In this document: positions 404-10,910 of the stretch, piece after piece
How the letters are laid out: every line of letters starts with the position of its first letter
Numbering within the stretch: position 1 is the first letter of the stretch
Source of the DNA: Tissierellales bacterium
GTDB lineage: Bacteria > Bacillota > Clostridia > Tissierellales > Tissierellaceae
NCBI GenBank assembly: GCA_014360205.1
Contig: JACIXZ010000005.1
Span: forward strand, 1-64,000
Length of the DNA: 64,000 nt
Direction: 5' to 3'
Program-made: the position numbers and the translations under genes
The notes under the pieces: generated by a model
Database searches by the model: none
Told to the model about the DNA's origin: nothing
What the model saw: the letters and a program-made list of their open reading frames with translations, nothing else

Positions 404-655
404 TTAATTTCAGAAAACGGGTTAGAAAAAATAGAAACAATAATTTCTGAATTAGAAAAAATAAGCCCTTTAAATATTAATACAGAAAAAATCAAAATGT
501 TATGCAATAGGAATAAGGATTTTAAACAGACGACTAAGAATAAAAACAAAGAGACTACAGAGATAGAAGTTCAATCAAAATTAATATTAACTCAATATGC
601 AAGTATATTAAACAGCTCATCTGTAGCCTTTGATAGGGAGGTTACAATAATATGA
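404..655 (+). pseudogene. istA: istA transposase, C-terminal remnant
   Basis: An open frame of 83 residues with no start of its own runs from the IS30 junction to a TGA at 653-655 that overlaps the istB start (ATGA). It begins PLISENGLEKIETIISELEK and is lysine- and glutamate-rich. Position directly upstream of istB with a 4-base overlap identifies it as the IstA tail; the sequence alone would not. The DDE catalytic core is missing because IS30 inserted within the gene. It is non-functional unless the rest is contiguous beyond the IS30 copy. Confidence 0.75.
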
Positions 656-1422
656 GTATTAAAGAAAACAAAGAAAACATTGAAAGAATAAAGTTTCTTT
701 CTAAAGAGCTAAAATTACCATACATGATGGGTAATGTAGAAGATGAAATCAAAGAAGCAAATTTAGAAGGTAATACATTCGAAGATTTTTTAAGAGAAAT
801 ATTAGAAAGAGAATACGATTTAAGAAAAGAAAATGGTAAAAAAAGCAGAATTAGAGCAGCAAAGTTTCCGTATAAAAAATATATTGAAGATTTAGTAATA
901 GAAGATCTGCCAGAAGATGCTCGCACAAAAATTAAGATGTTTTCATCGTTAGAGTTTATCAAAACAGGCCAAAATATAATTTTAGCAGGTAACCCTGGTA
1001 CTGGAAAAACCCATATTTCAATAGGTCTTGGAATAAAAGCTTGTAATGCCGGATATAAGGTATTGTTTACAACAATACCCCTTCTGGTTAATGAGTTAAA
1101 AGAATGTAGATCACAAAGAACATTAAGAGCCTTTGAAAACAACTTTGAAAAGTACGATTTAATTATTGCAGATGAATTAGGGTACATATCATTTGATAAG
1201 GAAGCTTCTGAGCTACTATTCACTCATCTTTCTTTAAGGGCAGGTAGAAAATCTACAATTATTACTACAAATTTATCATTTGAAAGATGGGATGAAATTT
1301 TTAAAGACCCAGTTATGACCGTAGCTATGATTGATAGACTAACTCATAAATCATATATTGTTAATATGAATGGCAATTCATACAGATTAAAAGAAACAAA
1401 ACAATGGCTTCAAGAGCAATAA
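652..1422 (+). CDS. istB: IstB-like ATPase, IS21-family transposition helper
   Basis: A 256-residue AAA+ ATPase of the DnaC/IstB type that assists the IstA transposase. Walker A is GNPGTGKTH at residues 113-121 and Walker B is LIIADELGY around 170-178, with acidic residues at 174-175. An N-terminal helical region precedes the ATPase core, as usual in IstB, and the length is normal. A GGAGG lies at 636-640 and the start overlaps the istA stop, implying coupled translation. The gene is intact, but its partner istA is broken by IS30, so the element is probably not self-mobile. Confidence 0.93.
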   Translation: MSIKENKENIERIKFLSKELKLPYMMGNVEDEIKEANLEGNTFEDFLREILEREYDLRKENGKKSRIRAAKFPYKKYIEDLVIEDLPEDARTKIKMFSSLEFIKTGQNIILAGNPGTGKTHISIGLGIKACNAGYKVLFTTIPLLVNELKECRSQRTLRAFENNFEKYDLIIADELGYISFDKEASELLFTHLSLRAGRKSTIITTNLSFERWDEIFKDPVMTVAMIDRLTHKSYIVNMNGNSYRLKETKQWLQEQ

Positions 1423-1480: not shown

Positions 1481-1924
1481 TTACACAAAATCTAATTTTT
1501 TGCTCAAACTATCAATTTCAATTAAAAATTCATCCAGTTCTGCACCTCTAGAATTATAATATCTCAGATTACGATAAATGTTCGAACTAGCAGTTTTTAA
1601 AATTTCTTTAGCTATTGATAATCTCAATGTTTCGTCAATATAGTGTCTTACTTGATTCACTACTAAATATCCACTTACGTTGGTTTCTTTAGGATAATAA
1701 CTTCCACTATAGAAGCCATAATAGTTGAAAATATGGAGAATTATTCCTTTCTGAGATAAAAAATTCAATAGTTTTGTGTTTAAGTCTATTTCTCCAAATA
1801 AAAATATCTCATCAACCACTTCAGATTTAATATCCTTAATGTCTCCCTCTTTAGTTGTCATTCTTATATTGTTATCTTTCCTAGACAAAACTCCGTTTTT
1901 AAAAATATAAAATTTTTCTCCCAT
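1481..1924 (-). pseudogene. cas1: cas1, N-terminal fragment cut by IS21
   Basis: The frame opens MGEKFYIFKNGVLSRKDNN with a good site (TTAGGAG) 8 bases before the ATG, then the β-strand-rich N-terminal Cas1 domain (IILHIFNYYGFYSGSYYP). It ends after 147 residues, while Cas1 of this type is about 330 residues. The last codons and the stop come from the IS21 end (about 1481-1487). The catalytic helical domain with its Glu/His/Asp metal site is therefore absent. Cas1 is the spacer integrase, so this copy cannot integrate. The remainder of cas1, cas2 and any array should lie to the left, outside the window. Confidence 0.9.
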
Positions 1925-1940
1925 ATTTCATACTCCTAAA

Positions 1941-2435
1941 TTATATATAGCATAATTCATAATATGCACAAGACTTGCAAATTGGACTATTTATTGGTTC
2001 TGGTGGTATTTTAAGATCTTTAACTTTTTCTATTTCCCTTAATGTCTCTTCTAATATTATACAATCTTCTTCATCAAGATAAACCTCTTTCCTTTTTTTA
2101 ATTAAAGGATAGTCTAATACTCCTTTTTCAATATCCATTCCTTTGTTTTTTAAAACGTACATATAATATTTTAATTGGATAATTGAAGCTTCTTCAATCT
2201 TCCTCGATTTTTTTACTTCATGAACCACTTTCCAATCCTTTATAAAATCGACTTTTATGTTTTCGTCAATTAATATATCCTTTTTCTCTCTGTTGTATGA
2301 CTCATCATTTATTAGGCCCCCTATTTCTACCAATTCACTATTGTGTTCCATATTTAAATTGTGTGCATAATACCAGAGCTTTCTTTTGCAAACTATAAAA
2401 TAATATACTTCTAATCCAGTTATCGCTGATATAAT
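1941..2435 (-). CDS. cas4: Cas4 exonuclease; full-length frame starts at an ATT, no standard start codon
   Basis: Cas4 is a RecB-like Fe-S nuclease that trims prespacers. From an in-frame ATT at 2435 the protein is 164 residues, the normal family length. It contains the first cluster cysteine (IVCKRKLWYY), the nuclease D...EVKKS motif, QLKYYMYVL (QxxxY) and the C-terminal cysteines (CKSCAYYELC). The ATT is 8 bases past the cas3 stop and just after AGGAAGTG, a near-perfect ribosome site. The first ATG in frame (2351) would give 136 residues and lose the N-terminal cysteine. Either ATT or the following ATA is used, or the start codon has been lost by mutation. The frame is otherwise intact. Confidence 0.85.
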   Translation of the reverse strand: MISAITGLEVYYFIVCKRKLWYYAHNLNMEHNSELVEIGGLINDESYNREKKDILIDENIKVDFIKDWKVVHEVKKSRKIEEASIIQLKYYMYVLKNKGMDIEKGVLDYPLIKKRKEVYLDEEDCIILEETLREIEKVKDLKIPPEPINSPICKSCAYYELCYI

Positions 2436-2443
2436 ATCACTTC

Positions 2444-4693
2444 CTATATAAAATTATCTTGAATTCCTTTACTTTGACCATCAGGATTTAATATAATAAC
2501 TCCTTTATCTTTAGAATACTGACATGGAAACACTGGAATAATATCATGTTTAGATAGCTTTACCTCTTCTTTGATATAATTTTTATGTTTCACATAAGTA
2601 TGATAGCTAATATTCACAGTCAAATCTAATATTCTATTTCTAGCGATATTTCTTTGCTTTTTCAATTTAGCCTTTTCAGTACCACTTAATTTATTATCAA
2701 TTTTCATATTCAATATATTTAATGATTCAATAACCAAATCTTTATTTTGTTCGTATATTACTTGTGGAATTACTTGAGTTGTTAGTATGTTTCTAAATCT
2801 ATATTTTACTTCATTTTTGCTTTTTTCATAATCTTCAATATTGTTAACGTAATTCATAGTTTCGATTATCTTGTTAAAATAATTAGTTTTTCTAATATTA
2901 TCAATGCAATATACTGAGTTTATCATGTCTATTTTATCTTTTTCAGATATAATCCCATTGTACTTAATTATCTCTTCTCTAGACAAATTAAAAATTTCTT
3001 TATCTATCACATAGCCAATACCACTTGGAGTTGTTTCAGATTCACCAACAAAAACATAGCAATTGTATATGTCATCTTCTAGTGCTCTTTTACGGTAACA
3101 CCTCCCCATTCTCTGAAAAAGTCCATTTAAATCTGATAATTCTGTTATTAACAAATCAAAATCAATGTCTAAAGAAGCCTCAACAACTTGAGTTGCTATC
3201 CATATTCCACACTCATCTGATTTAACATCACCAATTTTAAGTATTGCTTCCTCTTTATCTTTTCTATCCTTTTTTATAAATGCACTGTGAATCAAATCTA
3301 CTTTGTCTACAACCGGTTCTAATTCATCGTATAATTCTTGAGCCTTTTTCACGGTATTTACTATTACGAGTACCTTATTATCCCTGTACATATTGACAAT
3401 AAACTCAGCATTCAAATTATCTTCGATAACCTTTATGCTATGCCTATTGAATGTTTCATCAATAAAAATCTCTTCTGGAATTATAAATTCTATTCCCTCT
3501 TGTCGTAATATTTCTGGTAGGAAACTTGGCAAAGTTGCTGTCATAATTGCAAATTTCCCACCGACTTCTTGAATATACCTCAGTCCAACAACTAGATATG
3601 CTATTAGGTCCGGAGAATACATTTGAACTTCATCAATAATTACTTTTGAATATGCTAATGTTGCTAGTTTTAGTTCAAATCCTCTATATCTATATACAAA
3701 GTCAAATAATTGGTCTAAAGTGCAAATGGTTAACGGCATACATAATTGTCTAGTTTTGCTAAAATATTCTTCAAAATCAATTAAATCATCATCAAGTTTC
3801 AAGTATTCATTATAAGTGTCAGAATGCAATAAACCTACTCTTTCTTCCAAATTTTCTAGAACTATATTATCCTTAATCCTTTTATAAATAGAATTAATTG
3901 CTGCCTTCAATGGCAATGTAAAAAATCCTTTATTATCCCCTATCCATAATAAGCCAGCTTCAGTTTTTCCCATACCTGTTTGAGCTACGACTATCACATC
4001 TTCGTTGCTATGTTTATACATATATTTTTGCAGATCATTCCACTCAGTATTTGTCTGGTTTCTCCATTTATTCATCATGCTTTCCAGAGAATTGATTAAA
4101 AAATCATTCTTATATTCTACGTCAAGATGTGCACTTGCGGAATAATCTATTCGATTTAGTAACCCTTTGATCAATACATATTTGTAAAACATATCTTTAT
4201 CGTTTCTCTTATATATATAATCATAATTAAAATATTTTTTAGATAATTTACTTACTTTAATATTGTCTAATTTCTCATAATTAAATTCATGCAATATTTC
4301 CTGTATCTCTTCTAATTGATATTCATATTCTTGCTTGTTATATTCGTATTCTCTTTCATGATGATAAGCAATAGCTGTAGCAAGTACCTTAATATCACTT
4401 TCAGTTAACCCTTTTTCAATTAAAACATTAGGTTCTAAAAATGAGATGCTTAAAAAAGAATGTGGTACTTCCACGATGTTTTTTAAATGTGATTGGATAT
4501 TTTTGTTCCCTATTTTTTCTTGAAATTTAGGATTTATCTTTCCTAAATCGTGATATAAACATGCGATATACAACATATCCCAATCTATTTCTAGATCAGG
4601 ATATGTTGACTTTAAAATCTTGTAGTTATTTATTAAATTATCTGTATGTTCTTGGATTGTTTCTTGTGGATTTGATTTTGCTAAAAATTCCAT
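2444..4693 (-). CDS. cas3: Cas3 nuclease-helicase (HD domain plus SF2 helicase)
   Basis: A 749-residue effector that unwinds and degrades DNA recruited by Cascade. The N-terminal HD nuclease has H16, YHDLGK (H48/D49), H78 and HH at 111-112. The helicase has Walker A QTGMGKT at 238-244, DEVQ at 354-357, TATLP at 385-389, TQVVEASLDIDFD at 501-513 and QRMGRCYR at 527-534. All key residues are present. I chose the ATG at 4693, with AAGGAG 7 bases upstream and 10 bases after the cas5 stop, over an upstream ATG at 4735 that would overlap cas5. It appears functional. Confidence 0.95.
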   Translation of the reverse strand: MEFLAKSNPQETIQEHTDNLINNYKILKSTYPDLEIDWDMLYIACLYHDLGKINPKFQEKIGNKNIQSHLKNIVEVPHSFLSISFLEPNVLIEKGLTESDIKVLATAIAYHHEREYEYNKQEYEYQLEEIQEILHEFNYEKLDNIKVSKLSKKYFNYDYIYKRNDKDMFYKYVLIKGLLNRIDYSASAHLDVEYKNDFLINSLESMMNKWRNQTNTEWNDLQKYMYKHSNEDVIVVAQTGMGKTEAGLLWIGDNKGFFTLPLKAAINSIYKRIKDNIVLENLEERVGLLHSDTYNEYLKLDDDLIDFEEYFSKTRQLCMPLTICTLDQLFDFVYRYRGFELKLATLAYSKVIIDEVQMYSPDLIAYLVVGLRYIQEVGGKFAIMTATLPSFLPEILRQEGIEFIIPEEIFIDETFNRHSIKVIEDNLNAEFIVNMYRDNKVLVIVNTVKKAQELYDELEPVVDKVDLIHSAFIKKDRKDKEEAILKIGDVKSDECGIWIATQVVEASLDIDFDLLITELSDLNGLFQRMGRCYRKRALEDDIYNCYVFVGESETTPSGIGYVIDKEIFNLSREEIIKYNGIISEKDKIDMINSVYCIDNIRKTNYFNKIIETMNYVNNIEDYEKSKNEVKYRFRNILTTQVIPQVIYEQNKDLVIESLNILNMKIDNKLSGTEKAKLKKQRNIARNRILDLTVNISYHTYVKHKNYIKEEVKLSKHDIIPVFPCQYSKDKGVIILNPDGQSKGIQDNFI

Positions 4694-4703
4694 TTTTTTC
4701 TCC

Positions 4704-6318
<1,615 letters not shown>

Positions 6319-6329
6319 TTTTATCCCCC

Positions 6330-7979
6330 TTAATTATTATTGTTTTCATTTTTATTGCTATCGCTTCCAGAAATTAGTCCGCTGACGAATGCATATCCGA
6401 TAGTCCTAAACGCTTCATCATCTTTCAAAATTTCTGTAATGATTTTTGGAACTTGTTTTCCTACATACAAGTAACAATTTAATATTGTATCCATAAAACT
6501 ATTTTTGTTGTTAGTTTTTAAGGAATTTAATAGTCTGTAGGATATGCCAGCAATTTTATTTTCATTAGATTTTGTCTCGTATTCAGTTCTTAAATAGTAG
6601 CCTTGAGCCTTTGCCTTATCAACTATTTCACTATTCCAATCCTCCATATAGCTTAACCCCCTTAAATAATTAAAATTAATTTCAATTATATTTACGATAT
6701 CTCTACTTGAATAATATGCATTATTTTTCCCCAATTTATAAGTTAAAAGTTTATGAATCAAAAGATATAAGTTTTGATTGTCTAATAAGTTCTTTGTCAC
6801 TTCTTCTTGTAAATAATATCTATTTTCATTCTCTAGATAGTATTTCCCAGACAAATAACCTAATTGATCTCTGTTTCTATAAATAACATTTAATACATTA
6901 GCATTCAATAAGCTAAACCTGTAATTATCATTTTCAAGCCTTACTACTTGAATGTCTGAAACCTCATACATAGTGGATTTTGCCATTACTTCATTCATGG
7001 ATTTTATAAAAGCACTGTATGTTGAATTTAAGTCATTTTTAAGGATTTCGTCTTCTATTTTATTGTTTATAGAAATTAAGTTTTCGATATCGTTATTAGC
7101 ATTTACAAATATTCCCTTGTAAGCCGTAAATACAAATCCAGCTGGTACACAAGAATATACTAATTTGCATATTGGGCATATTCCTAAATCATAATAAAAA
7201 TTCCAGACATGTGATGTTTTCCTCCCGATATCAAACCCGATTTTGTTCATAAATGCTAAGTTCTCATCTAGATTAGATATTTGATTTCCACAAGTTGAAC
7301 ATTTATGCGAATATTTGGTTTTATCTATTTCTAAATATTCTAATACGGGATCTATAAAATGCTCCTTATAGGATATATATGGATCCAATACTTTATCTTG
7401 CCTGTTTAAGAATGAAACATTACTCCAAGACCGATTTATATAGTTGTAAATAATATTTCTAGCAGCAAGATATCTTTTAGCTTTTGGTTTCTTTAGCTCA
7501 TCTATAATGATTTCAATTTTTTCAAAAGCATCTTCTATTTGCTTATATCCATCTTTTGATATTGTTTTAGGATTTATTTTTGTCAGCCCTTTTTCAAGTT
7601 CTAATAAATTATTCCTAGAGTCTATTAAAGGATACATTTTAGTATAGCTATTTCCTTTTAAATTCTTCTTTATATAATTTATTTGATCATTCAATATATC
7701 AATACTTTTATTGTCAAAATTAACAAAATTATCTTGTCTATAGTAGTCAATGAAATTTTGAAATTCAACTATTTTCCCCAATGGTATTAGTTTTTCATAT
7801 TTATAGATTAAATATGAAAAAAATTTATCTTCAAAATTATTTAATGCTTCTTTATCAAAGCTTATGCTATCCTTAGCTTTTACTATTTTCTCGCCAGAAT
7901 ATTTTAGTATATTATAAACACCTACAACTCCAGCGTTATAAAGCCAATCTTCTAGGTAAAGGGTTATTTTTTCTTCCAT
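6330..7979 (-). CDS. cas8b: Cas8b1/Cst1, large subunit with CxxC-CxxC zinc motif
   Basis: A 549-residue large Cascade subunit. The two cysteine pairs CSTC (227-230) and CPIC (268-271) mark the CXXC-CXXC (Cst1) subtype of type I-B large subunits, which recognise the PAM and help recruit Cas3. The rest is low-similarity, lysine- and asparagine-rich sequence, usual for this fast-evolving family. The ATG at 7979, preceded by AAAGGAGGG, is preferred over an in-frame ATG at 8039 that would overlap cas6. The C-terminus (SDSNKNENNNN) is disordered. Confidence 0.9.
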   Translation of the reverse strand: MEEKITLYLEDWLYNAGVVGVYNILKYSGEKIVKAKDSISFDKEALNNFEDKFFSYLIYKYEKLIPLGKIVEFQNFIDYYRQDNFVNFDNKSIDILNDQINYIKKNLKGNSYTKMYPLIDSRNNLLELEKGLTKINPKTISKDGYKQIEDAFEKIEIIIDELKKPKAKRYLAARNIIYNYINRSWSNVSFLNRQDKVLDPYISYKEHFIDPVLEYLEIDKTKYSHKCSTCGNQISNLDENLAFMNKIGFDIGRKTSHVWNFYYDLGICPICKLVYSCVPAGFVFTAYKGIFVNANNDIENLISINNKIEDEILKNDLNSTYSAFIKSMNEVMAKSTMYEVSDIQVVRLENDNYRFSLLNANVLNVIYRNRDQLGYLSGKYYLENENRYYLQEEVTKNLLDNQNLYLLIHKLLTYKLGKNNAYYSSRDIVNIIEINFNYLRGLSYMEDWNSEIVDKAKAQGYYLRTEYETKSNENKIAGISYRLLNSLKTNNKNSFMDTILNCYLYVGKQVPKIITEILKDDEAFRTIGYAFVSGLISGSDSNKNENNNN

Positions 7980-7993
7980 TTTTTCCCTCCTTT

Positions 7994-8719
7994 TTATGTT
8001 AAATCCAACATTCCAAATCCAGATGAACGTTGAGAACAAACACCAGCTTTGTAAAAATAATCTAACAAGTATGGTTTTGCCTGAATTTCAATAATAGCCA
8101 AATTTGATGGTATTACTATATCATAGTGCTTGACTCTCACTTCTTTAGCCTTTATAACTGATAGTCTTAAATCATCTAAATCATATTTTGCTTTATCGCC
8201 AAATTGGTCTAATGCTTGGATTTTTATATTGTGAAGAAATATGTCTTTACCTTTTTGTGTGTCAAGTAAATGATACCATGTTGTTTTGTTGTCTCCATGG
8301 TGTTCTCTTATTGAAATAGGACTGAGTGTTTTAAATTTAGCATAATCATTAAGTATTGGTTTTTCTTTTACATTTATTATGTTCTTAGCTGTGATTGAAT
8401 TTCCTTTAATGTCTATATTTTTATTTAAAATACCGATTATGGAATTATAAAACATTAAAGAATCATAGTTGTCATAAGAAGAGAATTCTAAATCGAATGA
8501 ACATGAAGGAATGATTATCTGATCTTGCAAGAATTTAGCTTGTGGCAAATAAGTACTGAATGTAAAGCTTTTTCGTTTTGGTTGGTTTTCTCCATAAAGT
8601 GATTCGTAGTAATCCCTATCATATTTACTATAAGCAGTTTTAAGCAATGAAAGAATCAATCTATTCTTATCTTTAGGTATGCTTTCATTGCTTAGGTTAA
8701 ATTTAACTCTAAATCTCAT
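7994..8719 (-). CDS. cas6: Cas6-like protein, second copy, lacks the usual N-terminal histidine
   Basis: A 241-residue RAMP protein with the Cas6 C-terminal glycine-rich loop (AGVCSQRSSGFGML, about residues 225-238) and the mid-protein FKTLSPI segment. Cas6 cuts CRISPR precursor RNA. Residues 14-45 correspond to the helix that carries the catalytic histidine in active Cas6 but contain no histidine here; the neighbouring copy has two. It may be an inactive paralogue, a partner subunit, or use another histidine (for example in REHHGD). The ATG at 8719 has AAAGGAGGGG upstream and is chosen over 8755. Confidence 0.85.
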   Translation of the reverse strand: MRFRVKFNLSNESIPKDKNRLILSLLKTAYSKYDRDYYESLYGENQPKRKSFTFSTYLPQAKFLQDQIIIPSCSFDLEFSSYDNYDSLMFYNSIIGILNKNIDIKGNSITAKNIINVKEKPILNDYAKFKTLSPISIREHHGDNKTTWYHLLDTQKGKDIFLHNIKIQALDQFGDKAKYDLDDLRLSVIKAKEVRVKHYDIVIPSNLAIIEIQAKPYLLDYFYKAGVCSQRSSGFGMLDLT

Positions 8720-8736
8720 CTCTTCTCCCCTCCTTT

Positions 8737-9462
8737 CTATATTTGTTGTATACATCCAAATCCTTGAGAGTTTTTACTTCCAACTCCAGCATCAAGAGCT
8801 AATTCAAGCAACCTTTTATCCCCGGTAAGTTTAAATTTGCCAGAATATCCCTTTATTAAAAAATCCTTATAGTATACTATGTTTAAATTAGTGTTTGATA
8901 TAGCTTTTATTGAAAAATCAACATCTTCTTCCAATTCTCCATAAAAGGCTGCGTATTTTTTTATTATATTATCTCTGATAATTCTTTGGAAATCGTTTTC
9001 ATTCGGTGAAAAATAGCAAGTATATTTACTTCCATTTTCTTTTAGAAAAGTCGAGTAGGCTACTATTGGCGAAAGTGTCTTTACGATTAGTTCTTGGTTA
9101 TCTACTTTTTCTTTTTTGAGTTGAGTTTTTTCTACTGATATGATATTGTTCCCGAGCAAAAATTGATCCTTTTGAAGCAAATAATTGCCGAATGAATTTA
9201 TAAATTCTTTTATAGGTGATTTAACAACCCATTCAGCTTTTTTGCCAAAATATAATTTTGAGTTTCGCAATTGCCCTTTTGTTAATATGTTAGAGTATGT
9301 AAATAACTTAAATTTTCTGCTTTCAAGAATGTAGCCTTTGTCATGTAGAAATTGAGCTAATTCATCATTTATATTGTTATATATAAATCCTTGCAAAATA
9401 TGATTATAATGGGTTGGTAATACTATATTGTTTTGTGATTGAAATACGATTTTTAGTTCCAT
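8737..9462 (-). CDS. cas6: Cas6 CRISPR RNA endoribonuclease
   Basis: A 241-residue Cas6 with the standard layout: the VLPTHYNHILQGFIYN helix carrying H18 and H21 (candidate catalytic histidine), VKTLSPIVAYS in the middle, and the glycine-rich loop DAGVGSKNSQGFGC at the C-terminus. It would cleave repeats to give crRNAs with an 8-base handle. AAGGGGTG precedes the ATG. It lies 11 bases after the HD-domain gene and 17 bases before the second cas6-like gene, so three genes ahead of cas8b form one transcript segment. Confidence 0.93.
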   Translation of the reverse strand: MELKIVFQSQNNIVLPTHYNHILQGFIYNNINDELAQFLHDKGYILESRKFKLFTYSNILTKGQLRNSKLYFGKKAEWVVKSPIKEFINSFGNYLLQKDQFLLGNNIISVEKTQLKKEKVDNQELIVKTLSPIVAYSTFLKENGSKYTCYFSPNENDFQRIIRDNIIKKYAAFYGELEEDVDFSIKAISNTNLNIVYYKDFLIKGYSGKFKLTGDKRLLELALDAGVGSKNSQGFGCIQQI

Positions 9463-9473
9463 CTATACACCCC

Positions 9474-9881
9474 TTAATCTGTAATTAACTCTTCAAAAGC
9501 TTTTTTAAAAAGTTTGTACCTTTCATGCCCTAGTATTTGTTCCCCTTTCCTAATATTATATTTGATATCTTCTATCTTAATTCTTCGTGCATCTTCATTG
9601 TTTTTTACTTTTCTAATATATTCCAAGTATGTCTCATCTTCTTTTTTATATAAATATTTACATATTTCAATAGTTTTTTCTGAAAATCCATTTTTTACCA
9701 AATCATCTATTGATAATTTCCCTTCTTCTAATGCATCATGAAATAAAGCTGCGATTTTCGCATCATTGGTTTTCATCTTTAGAGCTATTTCTATAGGATG
9801 TGATATAAACGGAACTCCATCATCATCCATTCTCCCATAATACATTTTATAAGATAACTCTATTGCCCGTTCAACATCCAT
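9474..9881 (-). CDS. Small HD-domain protein of the RelA/SpoT hydrolase type, in the cas operon
   Basis: A 135-residue stand-alone HD phosphohydrolase domain. It contains SHPIEIALKM (H28), AALFHDALEE (H48/D49) and RRIKIEDIKYN (D105), which line up with the manganese-binding HD residues of the (p)ppGpp hydrolase domain of RelA/SpoT and Mesh1. The synthetase domain is absent. The product could be a small alarmone or nucleotide hydrolase; the substrate is unknown. It sits 11 bases upstream of cas6 with its own AGGAG site, making it part of the cas transcript. It is distinct from the Cas3 HD domain, which is present separately. Confidence 0.75.
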   Translation of the reverse strand: MDVERAIELSYKMYYGRMDDDGVPFISHPIEIALKMKTNDAKIAALFHDALEEGKLSIDDLVKNGFSEKTIEICKYLYKKEDETYLEYIRKVKNNEDARRIKIEDIKYNIRKGEQILGHERYKLFKKAFEELITD

Positions 9882-9962
9882 TTTATCACTCCTAAAAATT
9901 TAGTTTTTCACGTTCTTATCATCTTGTAAATATTTTACCATAGATTGAGGCAATATATTGTC

Positions 9963-10910
9963 TTAATTATATATTTTATTTAAATATTCTATCTCTTTTT
10001 TTATATCTTCTCTAAGTTCGATAGGTTCTATTACATGAGCATATTTTCCCATACTTAATATCCAAGACTTTATTTCTTTATAGCCCATTATTTCAGATTC
10101 ATATAATATAGTTTCATCATCTATTTCAGTGATCTTGTGTGCGTTCGAAAACCCTTTTTCTTTTACAAGTTGGTTAAATGGATGTTTTATTTCTACTTTT
10201 AGTTTAAAAGGTTTATCATTAATTATCCCAAAAGATGTGCTCAATCTTTTATTAATGTCTATGTTTTTATTAATTTGAAATTCTTCATCTAAGATATCTA
10301 TCTTCTCTATTCTAGCTAATTTAAAATACCTTATATCTTTTCTAAGTTCACAATATCCAAAAAAATATACAGCTAAATCATACTCAAATACACCATAAGG
10401 ATGTACGATTCTTGTTTTTTTAGAATCGTCATTTTTTTCTAATGGTTTGTACTTAAGCTTTAATTTCCTATGTTTAGAGATGGCAGTATTTATTATTTCC
10501 CATGATTTTAGTTCTTTTTCTTTAACTAAATTTGGTCTTACAACATTTTTTGAGAAAAAGTTTATTTCTTCGTGCCCAGAGATATTGTTTAATATTTTTT
10601 TAGTAAGTTTATCAAATATTGGGGCATGTGGATAGTCTTTACTTTTTATAAGTTCATTTACCATCTTTAAAGAGTCTATTTCTTCTTTTGTTATGCCAAT
10701 GAAAGATAGCTCTAGTGGCATTTCTAAATAATATCCACCATCTGGTCCACGTTTTGACCCTATGTAAAACCCACTTTTTTCTAAGTCTTCCTTATATGTC
10801 TTTATCATTCTCTCACTTACTTCTAATTCTCTTGTTAAATCTTTAACTTTCATAGTCCCATTTTTATTTAATAGTTTAACCATGTTGATTGCGTTGGATA
10901 TCCGAGACAT
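9963..10910 (-). CDS. WYL-domain transcriptional regulator heading the cas operon
   Basis: A 315-residue regulator. Residues 1-60 form a DeoR/HTH_11-type winged helix (KDLTRELEVSERMIKTYKEDLEKSG). Residues about 150-215 form a WYL ligand-binding domain (HPYGVFEYDLAVYFFGYCELRKDIRYFKLARI), followed by the WCX-type C-terminal extension. WYL proteins are repeatedly found next to CRISPR-Cas and other defence loci and some repress cas transcription. Here it is 81 bases upstream of the HD gene on the same strand, so it likely controls this operon. Start ATG follows AGGGTGATTTT. Confidence 0.88.
   Translation of the reverse strand: MSRISNAINMVKLLNKNGTMKVKDLTRELEVSERMIKTYKEDLEKSGFYIGSKRGPDGGYYLEMPLELSFIGITKEEIDSLKMVNELIKSKDYPHAPIFDKLTKKILNNISGHEEINFFSKNVVRPNLVKEKELKSWEIINTAISKHRKLKLKYKPLEKNDDSKKTRIVHPYGVFEYDLAVYFFGYCELRKDIRYFKLARIEKIDILDEEFQINKNIDINKRLSTSFGIINDKPFKLKVEIKHPFNQLVKEKGFSNAHKITEIDDETILYESEIMGYKEIKSWILSMGKYAHVIEPIELREDIKKEIEYLNKIYN

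Follow-up and report, generated by a model that had tools for sequence, protein, structure and literature searches.

An HD protein related to small alarmone hydrolases, with an apparently altered substrate shell, encoded beside a second cas6 in a type I-B CRISPR operon of the genus Soehngenia

Results

Gene content of the operon

The window, that is, the whole stretch of 64,000 nt that was analyzed, is contig C45 of a 1.98-Mb genome (G000). It contains a type I-B operon of the Cst kind (TIGR01908, TIGR02585 and TIGR01895) in which cas6 is doubled. In order of transcription, the genes encode a WYL regulator, an HD protein, Cas6a, Cas6b, Cas8b1, Cas7, Cas5, Cas3, Cas4 and a truncated Cas1 (Table 1). 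HD and cas6a lie at the same place in both other genomes of the Soehngenia genus that were searched, S. longivitae (G002, locus L032) and a Tissierellaceae MAG (G001, locus L033), and the locus is flanked by the same genes, which we take to be AmpS-like and CitT-like. In all three genomes HD is the first operon gene after the WYL gene and is 1-11 nt from cas6a.

Table 1 Features of the operon region in window coordinates
Feature	Coordinates	Strand	Basis or remarks
WYL-domain regulator with HTH	9963..10910	-	Pfam WYL 4e-15, WCX, HTH_11; PADLOC WYL
WYL-HD gap, probable promoter/operator	9882..9962	-	Interspecies conservation; elements read by eye
SAH-type HD protein	9474..9881	-	135 aa; metal ligands H28, H48, D49, D105; changed shell Y14, R17, D20, F25, E53, R111, E114
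Cas6a, first Cas6	8737..9462	-	TIGR01877 1.7e-42
Cas6b, second Cas6, usual one in Cst-type I-B operons	7994..8755 (start may be 8719)	-	TIGR01877; labels in 40-locus survey
Cas8b1/Cst1	6330..8039	-	TIGR01908; PADLOC Cas8b 9e-145
Cas7/Cst2	5434..6318	-	TIGR02585 1.4e-61
Cas5	4704..5456	-	TIGR01895 7e-32
Cas3 with own HD nuclease domain	2444..4735	-	TIGR01587, TIGR01596
Cas4	1941..2351	-	PF01930 1e-41
Cas1, truncated, 147 aa (330 aa in sister genome)	1481..1924	-	ORF and NCBIfam search
istB-like ORF beside broken cas1 end	652..1422	+	ORF list

The cas1 gene is cut short next to an IS21-like element, whose ORF is presumably istB. On contig C11 of the same genome (L238), a Cst-type array with 42 copies of one 22-mer ends at an ORF that we take to be istA-like. 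By synteny with S. longivitae, the broken cas1 and the array end on C11 may flank a single insertion, in which case cas2 and the remainder of cas1 were lost at this locus. In S. longivitae itself (L185, C1:26000-45000) cas4-cas1 is missing, and no ORF of at least 90 aa lies between cas3 and the arrays.

Sequence identity changes along the operon. Cas3, Cas4 and Cas1 are about 96-97 % identical to those of the sister genome, compared with 76 % for HD and Cas6a, and the closest pair is L032/L033 in HD but the window and L033 in Cas3. This jump, together with the differing closest pairs, suggests recombination among strains.

The HD gene and the gap upstream of it

The HD ORF runs on the minus strand and encodes 135 aa from an ATG; the plus-strand frame of the same interval is not open, with stops throughout. 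The first-pass annotation had described a 135-residue ORF with H28, H48, D49 and D105, located 11 bases ahead of cas6, and both the translation and the ORF coordinates bear this out. The protein is 76 % identical to the copies at the same locus in both other genus genomes, and the dN/dS values of the three pairs are 0.07, 0.11 and 0.11 (0.05 to 0.24 for the other operon genes within the genus). Since it is kept at this identity in the same place and under such constraint, the ORF is a real gene and not a chance frame, and the dN/dS values likewise rule out a decaying pseudogene. With a pI of 5.2-5.7 in the genus, inside the range of other SAH (small alarmone hydrolase)-type proteins (median 6.1), the protein is mildly acidic, which does not favor RNA binding.

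The 81-nt gap between WYL and HD has a p-distance of 0.16-0.19 between species, with 6 of the first 55 sites differing in each pair, while synonymous p in WYL and HD is 0.37-0.69. This conservation is not special to the gap because the gap between WYL and AmpS is similarly conserved (p-distance 0.13-0.23). By eye, an extended -10-like element (TGGTAAAAT, hexamer 9937-9932) and a GTAAA..TTTAC palindrome (9938-9926) were seen, and the gap is a probable promoter/operator. The consensus promoter scan listed no site within it, and promoter-like sites in the region were fewer than in shuffled sequences (14 vs 21.4).

Fold and family of the HD protein

When the HD protein was compared with PDB sequences, the best match was 7smg, a (p)ppApp hydrolase (E-value 1.6e-16; next match 1.4e-4), which a profile search also recovered (E-value 1.5e-17). 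Matches to family models were weaker. The full-length SpoT/RelA model TIGR00691 gave an E-value of 5e-7 and 28 bits (model cut-off 499), and Pfam HD_4 gave 19.5 bits, under its gathering cut-off of 27.2. In PHROGs the match was phrog_990, metal-dependent phosphohydrolase (1.2e-22), and none of the PADLOC defence models matched at E 0.001.

An AlphaFold (AF2) model built from three sequences reached a pLDDT of 93.4 and a pTM of 0.88, with two of the five models scoring lower (79 and 77). In a Foldseek search four 7smg chains were on top (E-values 4e-8 to 2e-7). VIA-align, applied to the candidates supplied by Foldseek, gave Z 18.4 for 7smg, 13.8 for PaSAH, 13.6-13.5 for Mesh1 and about 7-9 for general HD phosphohydrolases; a Z below about 13 may reflect a common helical arrangement, and 7smg lies above that. 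Because the sequence matches and the predicted fold both place 7smg first, the HD protein descends from RSH-type SAHs and, in the model, has their fold.

Active-site residues

The residues of the HD protein were compared with SAH-type proteins taken from the fetched loci. The 151 hits came down to 105 once identical tails were merged; 102 of these are from outside the genus, and 52 of the 102 are from viral contigs. Seven residues (H28, H48, D49, E52, K102, D105 and N109) are invariant in all 102 and in the three genus members. Seven other positions, nearly invariant elsewhere, are changed in all three genus members: H14 (100/102) to Y, Q17 (97/102) to R, K/R20 (101/102) to D/E, Y25, the Tyr before H-P (101/102), to F, D53 (101/102) to E, D/N111 (99/102) to R/K and R114 (100/102) to E. 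The changes at positions 20 and 114 are charge reversals, and the one at position 53 turns the catalytic ED pair into EE.

The alignment with characterized enzymes gives these positions a meaning. In RelSeq, Mn2+ is coordinated through His53, His77 and Asp144 (PMC13299517), which align with H28, H48 and D105. In Acinetobacter baumannii SpoT, alanine at Y51, E82, D83 or N147 abolishes hydrolysis; K46 is described as redundant, and the contribution of K140 and R144 is five- to tenfold (PMC9974481). By our own mapping, based on spacing, these SpoT residues correspond to F25 (Y51), E52 (E82), E53 (D83), N109 (N147), D20 (K46) and K102 (K140); R144 aligns with I106, a position that is not Arg in other SAHs either, with one exception. 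From the residue comparison and these alignments, the metal ligands are kept and the substrate shell appears to be altered. Both Y25 to F and D53 to E are milder than the alanine substitutions made in SpoT, and the charge reversal at position 20 may matter less than it seems because the SpoT lysine aligned there is redundant. Judged from sequence, (p)ppGpp hydrolysis by the HD protein is doubtful. As the gene is under purifying selection (dN/dS 0.07-0.11), the pattern looks like a new function rather than decay.

We therefore consider it unlikely that this is an ordinary SAH hydrolyzing (p)ppGpp or (p)ppApp, which would lower alarmones in defence or protect the cell from toxic alarmone synthetases. 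In its favor, the closest relative of known structure hydrolyzes (p)ppApp, the metal ligands, E52, K102 and N109 are retained, the position-20 lysine is redundant in SpoT, and the Y to F and D to E changes are conservative. Each of the three genus genomes also encodes two RelA_SpoT-domain proteins, of which one resembles Rel in its length and HD match. Against this stand F25, E53, D/E20 and E114 in 3/3 genus members, where 101 (Y), 101 (D), 101 (K/R) and 100 (R) of the 102 other proteins have the usual residue, the alignment of F25 and E53 with SpoT residues whose replacement by alanine abolishes hydrolysis (PMC9974481), and the location of the RelA_SpoT domains on other contigs than the operon. 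No neighboring synthetase of the toxSAS type was found; the RelA_SpoT domains of the window genome are on contigs C2 and C15, and the operon is on C45. The HD protein may still be a toxSAS antitoxin acting in trans. The second RelA_SpoT-domain protein is present in all three genus genomes (L186:4171-5529, L187 and L188) in frames of 462-470 aa, and its only NCBIfam match in the window genome is GTPPhKinYjbM, far below the cut-off.

The same residues bear on a non-enzymatic role, in which a metal- or nucleotide-binding protein would regulate Cas6a or the WYL repressor. Two catalytic positions are changed (Y to F and D to E), as is the likely phosphate-binding side, and the gene has the regulator on one side and effector genes on the other. 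For binding alone, the four metal ligands together with E52, K102 and N109, all kept in 3/3 members, would be unnecessary, and we regard this role as distinctly unlikely.

The first-pass annotation had named the protein a SpoT/Mesh1-like HD hydrolase. The structure searches uphold the fold and the alignment upholds the metal ligands, and the reading as an alarmone hydrolase is weakened by the seven shell changes.

Distribution and evolution of the HD gene

In a tree of 105 rows the genus HD proteins form one clade (100/100). Its stem measures 2.36 changes per site, where the median terminal branch measures 0.29; bootstrap values were not yet stable, and the tree does not fix the place of the genus clade within the family. 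The long stem, followed by dN/dS of 0.07-0.11, suggests either that the function changed or that the clade descends from a branch missing from the sample.

A pattern scan of 84,980 species genomes, which requires exact short peptide matches and in which the genome of the window itself may be absent, matched only two genus members and one long RSH-like ORF. Searches of the class and the phylum yielded many SAH relatives; outside the genus the top score was 100 bits, compared with 278-282 inside. Loci of the best hits were inspected (11 distant ones as stretches of about 19 kb, 27 in the class and 15 in the phylum with flanks of about 1.5 kb), and no SAH was found within a cas operon among them; cas genes were recognized by BLAST to the window's own proteins and by reading, so other Cas types could be missed. 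At one of the 11 distant loci, L044 (G093:C13), an ordinary SAH is located some 2 kb from the far end of a repeat array of 71 copies, and it is the array that Cas1, Cas4 and Cas3 follow. This proximity was taken as chance, since the residues of the protein are those usual for SAHs and the four sequences closest to it in the tree (L010-L013) have no cas label in their stretches. A weak WYL-like match (E-value 3e-4) lies beside the SAH of L068. Among the open-licence PMC papers listed by literature searches, there was no report of a SAH/SpoT-like gene in CRISPR operons.

Co-occurrence in distant genomes, proposed earlier as the sign of a true accessory gene, did not emerge: as far as searched, the gene is seen in this position only in the genus. 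Its presence at unrelated loci in close relatives, which was to speak against such a role, was seen only for ordinary SAHs that belong to other branches and share 33-37 % identity, encoded in three genomes (G004, G015 and G021) from the family of the window genome. Since there are three carrier genomes, all at one locus, the co-occurrence of HD with cas genes counts as a single event.

SAH-type HD genes are common in viral contigs (L241-L320) and in phage records of many hosts, where they may serve counter-defence or host control. The HD protein matched 162 of 50,697 phage records (55 covering at least 80 %) and 265 of 72,556 plasmid records (241 covering at least 80 %), and at least 498 of the 600 pattern matches listed in viral contigs were relatives by the SAH alignment; the A1 pattern gave 46 matches in viral contigs and no relatives. 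Together with the restriction of the gene to one genus, these counts would fit a passenger, a SAH from a mobile element that landed with cas6a and whose function is unrelated to CRISPR. We hold this to be rather unlikely, as HD is the first operon gene in 3/3 genomes, 1-11 nt from cas6a and under purifying selection. An HD-alarmone enzyme of jumbo phages has been interpreted as targeting alarmone signals in host immunity (PMC7824862), so either an alarmone role or a mobile origin stays conceivable for HD.

Related Cas8b1 loci and the HD-Cas6a pair

A Cas8b1 search matched 23 of the 391 genomes of the class and 27 of the 150 relatives, two sets that overlap and both include the three genus genomes. 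Forty Cas8b1 loci outside the genus were fetched (the weak hits G033 and G453 were left out), and none of them contained an HD relative (HD model, E up to 1). Absence from all 40 of these loci rules out HD as a core Cas subunit and agrees with the first-pass annotation, which had set it apart from the core of type I-B. The gene upstream of Cas6 was visible in 35 of the loci; the other five are cut off by a contig end or lack a Cas6 label. WYL was directly there in 17 of the 35, and in the other 18 Cas6 was preceded by a different ORF, which in a few loci ran on the opposite strand. The order WYL-Cas6-Cas8b1 is thus common among related loci. Because WYL is directly before Cas6 in 17/35 and HD is found in 0/40, HD and Cas6a look like a genus-specific insertion of two genes.

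Cas6a relatives and repeat arrays

Relatives of Cas6a were present in 53 of 199 order genomes. No HD label was found in the 27 non-genus Cas6a loci (flanks of about 1.5 kb, BLAST labels), which rules out HD as a constant companion of Cas6a, nor did the HD model match in eight wider non-genus neighborhoods (L229-L236, in a run that also took in four genus stretches, 12 in total). In three of these eight (L230, L231 and L235) Cas6a heads a full cas operon, and in the other five the Cas6a relative is without other labelled cas genes. The operon of L230, the only neighborhood typed, is Csh I-B (Csh1 and Csh2). Repeats containing ...CCTATAAGGAAT... occur in L230 and L235, and a similar repeat in L229.

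The same second-type repeats were counted in the genus, with 52 in the window genome, 179 in S. longivitae and none within 2 mismatches in G001. Cst-type repeats numbered 67, 41 and 297, respectively. Both array types directly follow the operon in S. longivitae (L185), the Cst-type array with 41 copies and the second-type array with 93. From the operons of its relatives and the repeat counts, Cas6a, the extra Cas6, plausibly serves the second array type, with G001 as an exception: this genome has HD and Cas6a without second-type repeats, which makes the link with such arrays a loose one.

A stretch of 19.9 kb in S. longivitae (G002:C5, L240) has type III genes (a TIGR03986 RAMP, a TM1812-family protein and Csx20) near an 87-copy second-type array. 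No Cas6 label was found within it, and Cas6a may serve this array from a distance.

Type III genes beside a second-type array would also be in keeping with the suggestion that HD degrades a CRISPR second messenger such as cyclic oligoadenylate. We judge this very improbable, as TIGR03986 has no match in the window genome or G001 and no convincing Cas10 was found in the three genus genomes, HD being present in all three regardless. The two PF22335 (Cas10) hits in genus genomes are a protein of about 1,760 aa, which we read as a signalling protein. This Cas10 test is weak because the control search also matched in E. coli, which is not known to have Cas10.

Proposed function

The reading we favor, although we give it somewhat less than an even chance, is that a SAH entered the operon together with a second cas6 and now acts, alongside Cas6, as a metal-dependent phosphohydrolase whose substrate has changed. 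A small alarmone hydrolase would have joined the I-B operon of an ancestral Soehngenia along with cas6a. Its product would still be a metal-dependent phosphohydrolase, its substrate would no longer be (p)ppGpp or (p)ppApp, and it would be co-produced with Cas6a and act in the same step. SAHs can accept more than one substrate; XccSAH takes ppGpp, pppApp and NADPH (PMC9765508).

The step thought most likely is the treatment of phosphate ends on RNA or nucleotides from crRNA processing. This chemistry is favored because a 2'-3' phosphate is usual on crRNAs produced by Cas6 (PMC3945376) and because CCA enzymes with a functional HD domain use it to remove 2'-3' cyclic phosphates (PMC10673834). Some HD-domain enzymes elsewhere remove 2',3'-cyclic, 2'- and 3'-phosphates. 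Against it, the relationship to the HD domains of CCA enzymes is only a distant one. By this analogy HD could be a dedicated crRNA-end enzyme, a SAH-derived RNA-processing subunit that opens or removes the 2',3'-phosphate left by Cas6 (or another processing end), an idea that we regard as improbable in this specific form.

For the first-pass annotation as a whole, the observation is confirmed and the interpretation is partly supported: fold, ligands and non-core status hold, the alarmone role is weakened, and co-occurrence in distant genomes was not seen. The locus is a well-preserved instance in which a relative of alarmone hydrolases appears to have been recruited into a CRISPR operon with the residues around its metal site rewritten. 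If HD acts on crRNA ends or on a new signal, type I immunity would have an extra step; if HD still acts on alarmones, the locus would link CRISPR expression to the stringent response. It is also an example of an operon that acquired an additional cas6, perhaps for reading arrays of a second type.

Comparison with known systems

Compared with 7smg, the (p)ppApp hydrolase of Bacteroides caccae, the HD protein is alike in its predicted full-length fold (Z 18.4, rmsd 2.5, 135 residues aligned, 26 % identity), size, metal ligands and the E of the ED pair. The two differ around the metal site, where 7smg has HSGQ, D-K, Y, ED and N-M-D-I-T-R and the HD protein has YYGR, D-D, F, EE and N-I-R-K-G-E. 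With small alarmone hydrolases and MESH1 (Pfam HD_4) it has in common a single HD domain, the H...HD...D metal ligands, N109 and K102, but it falls below the HD_4 cut-off, has the seven shell changes and is located in a cas operon. The common ground with the Cas3'' HD nuclease domain is the HD superfamily. Cas3 of the same operon carries its own HD domain, and a Pfam search at E 0.001 listed only HD_4 for the HD protein, with no match to Cas3_HD.

The Cst-type I-B operons of other members of the class and order are alike in the order Cas6-Cas8b1-7-5-3-4-1, in WYL before Cas6 (17/35) and, in many, in the presence of arrays. They have one Cas6 directly before Cas8b1 and are without HD, whereas here HD and Cas6a stand between WYL and Cas6b.
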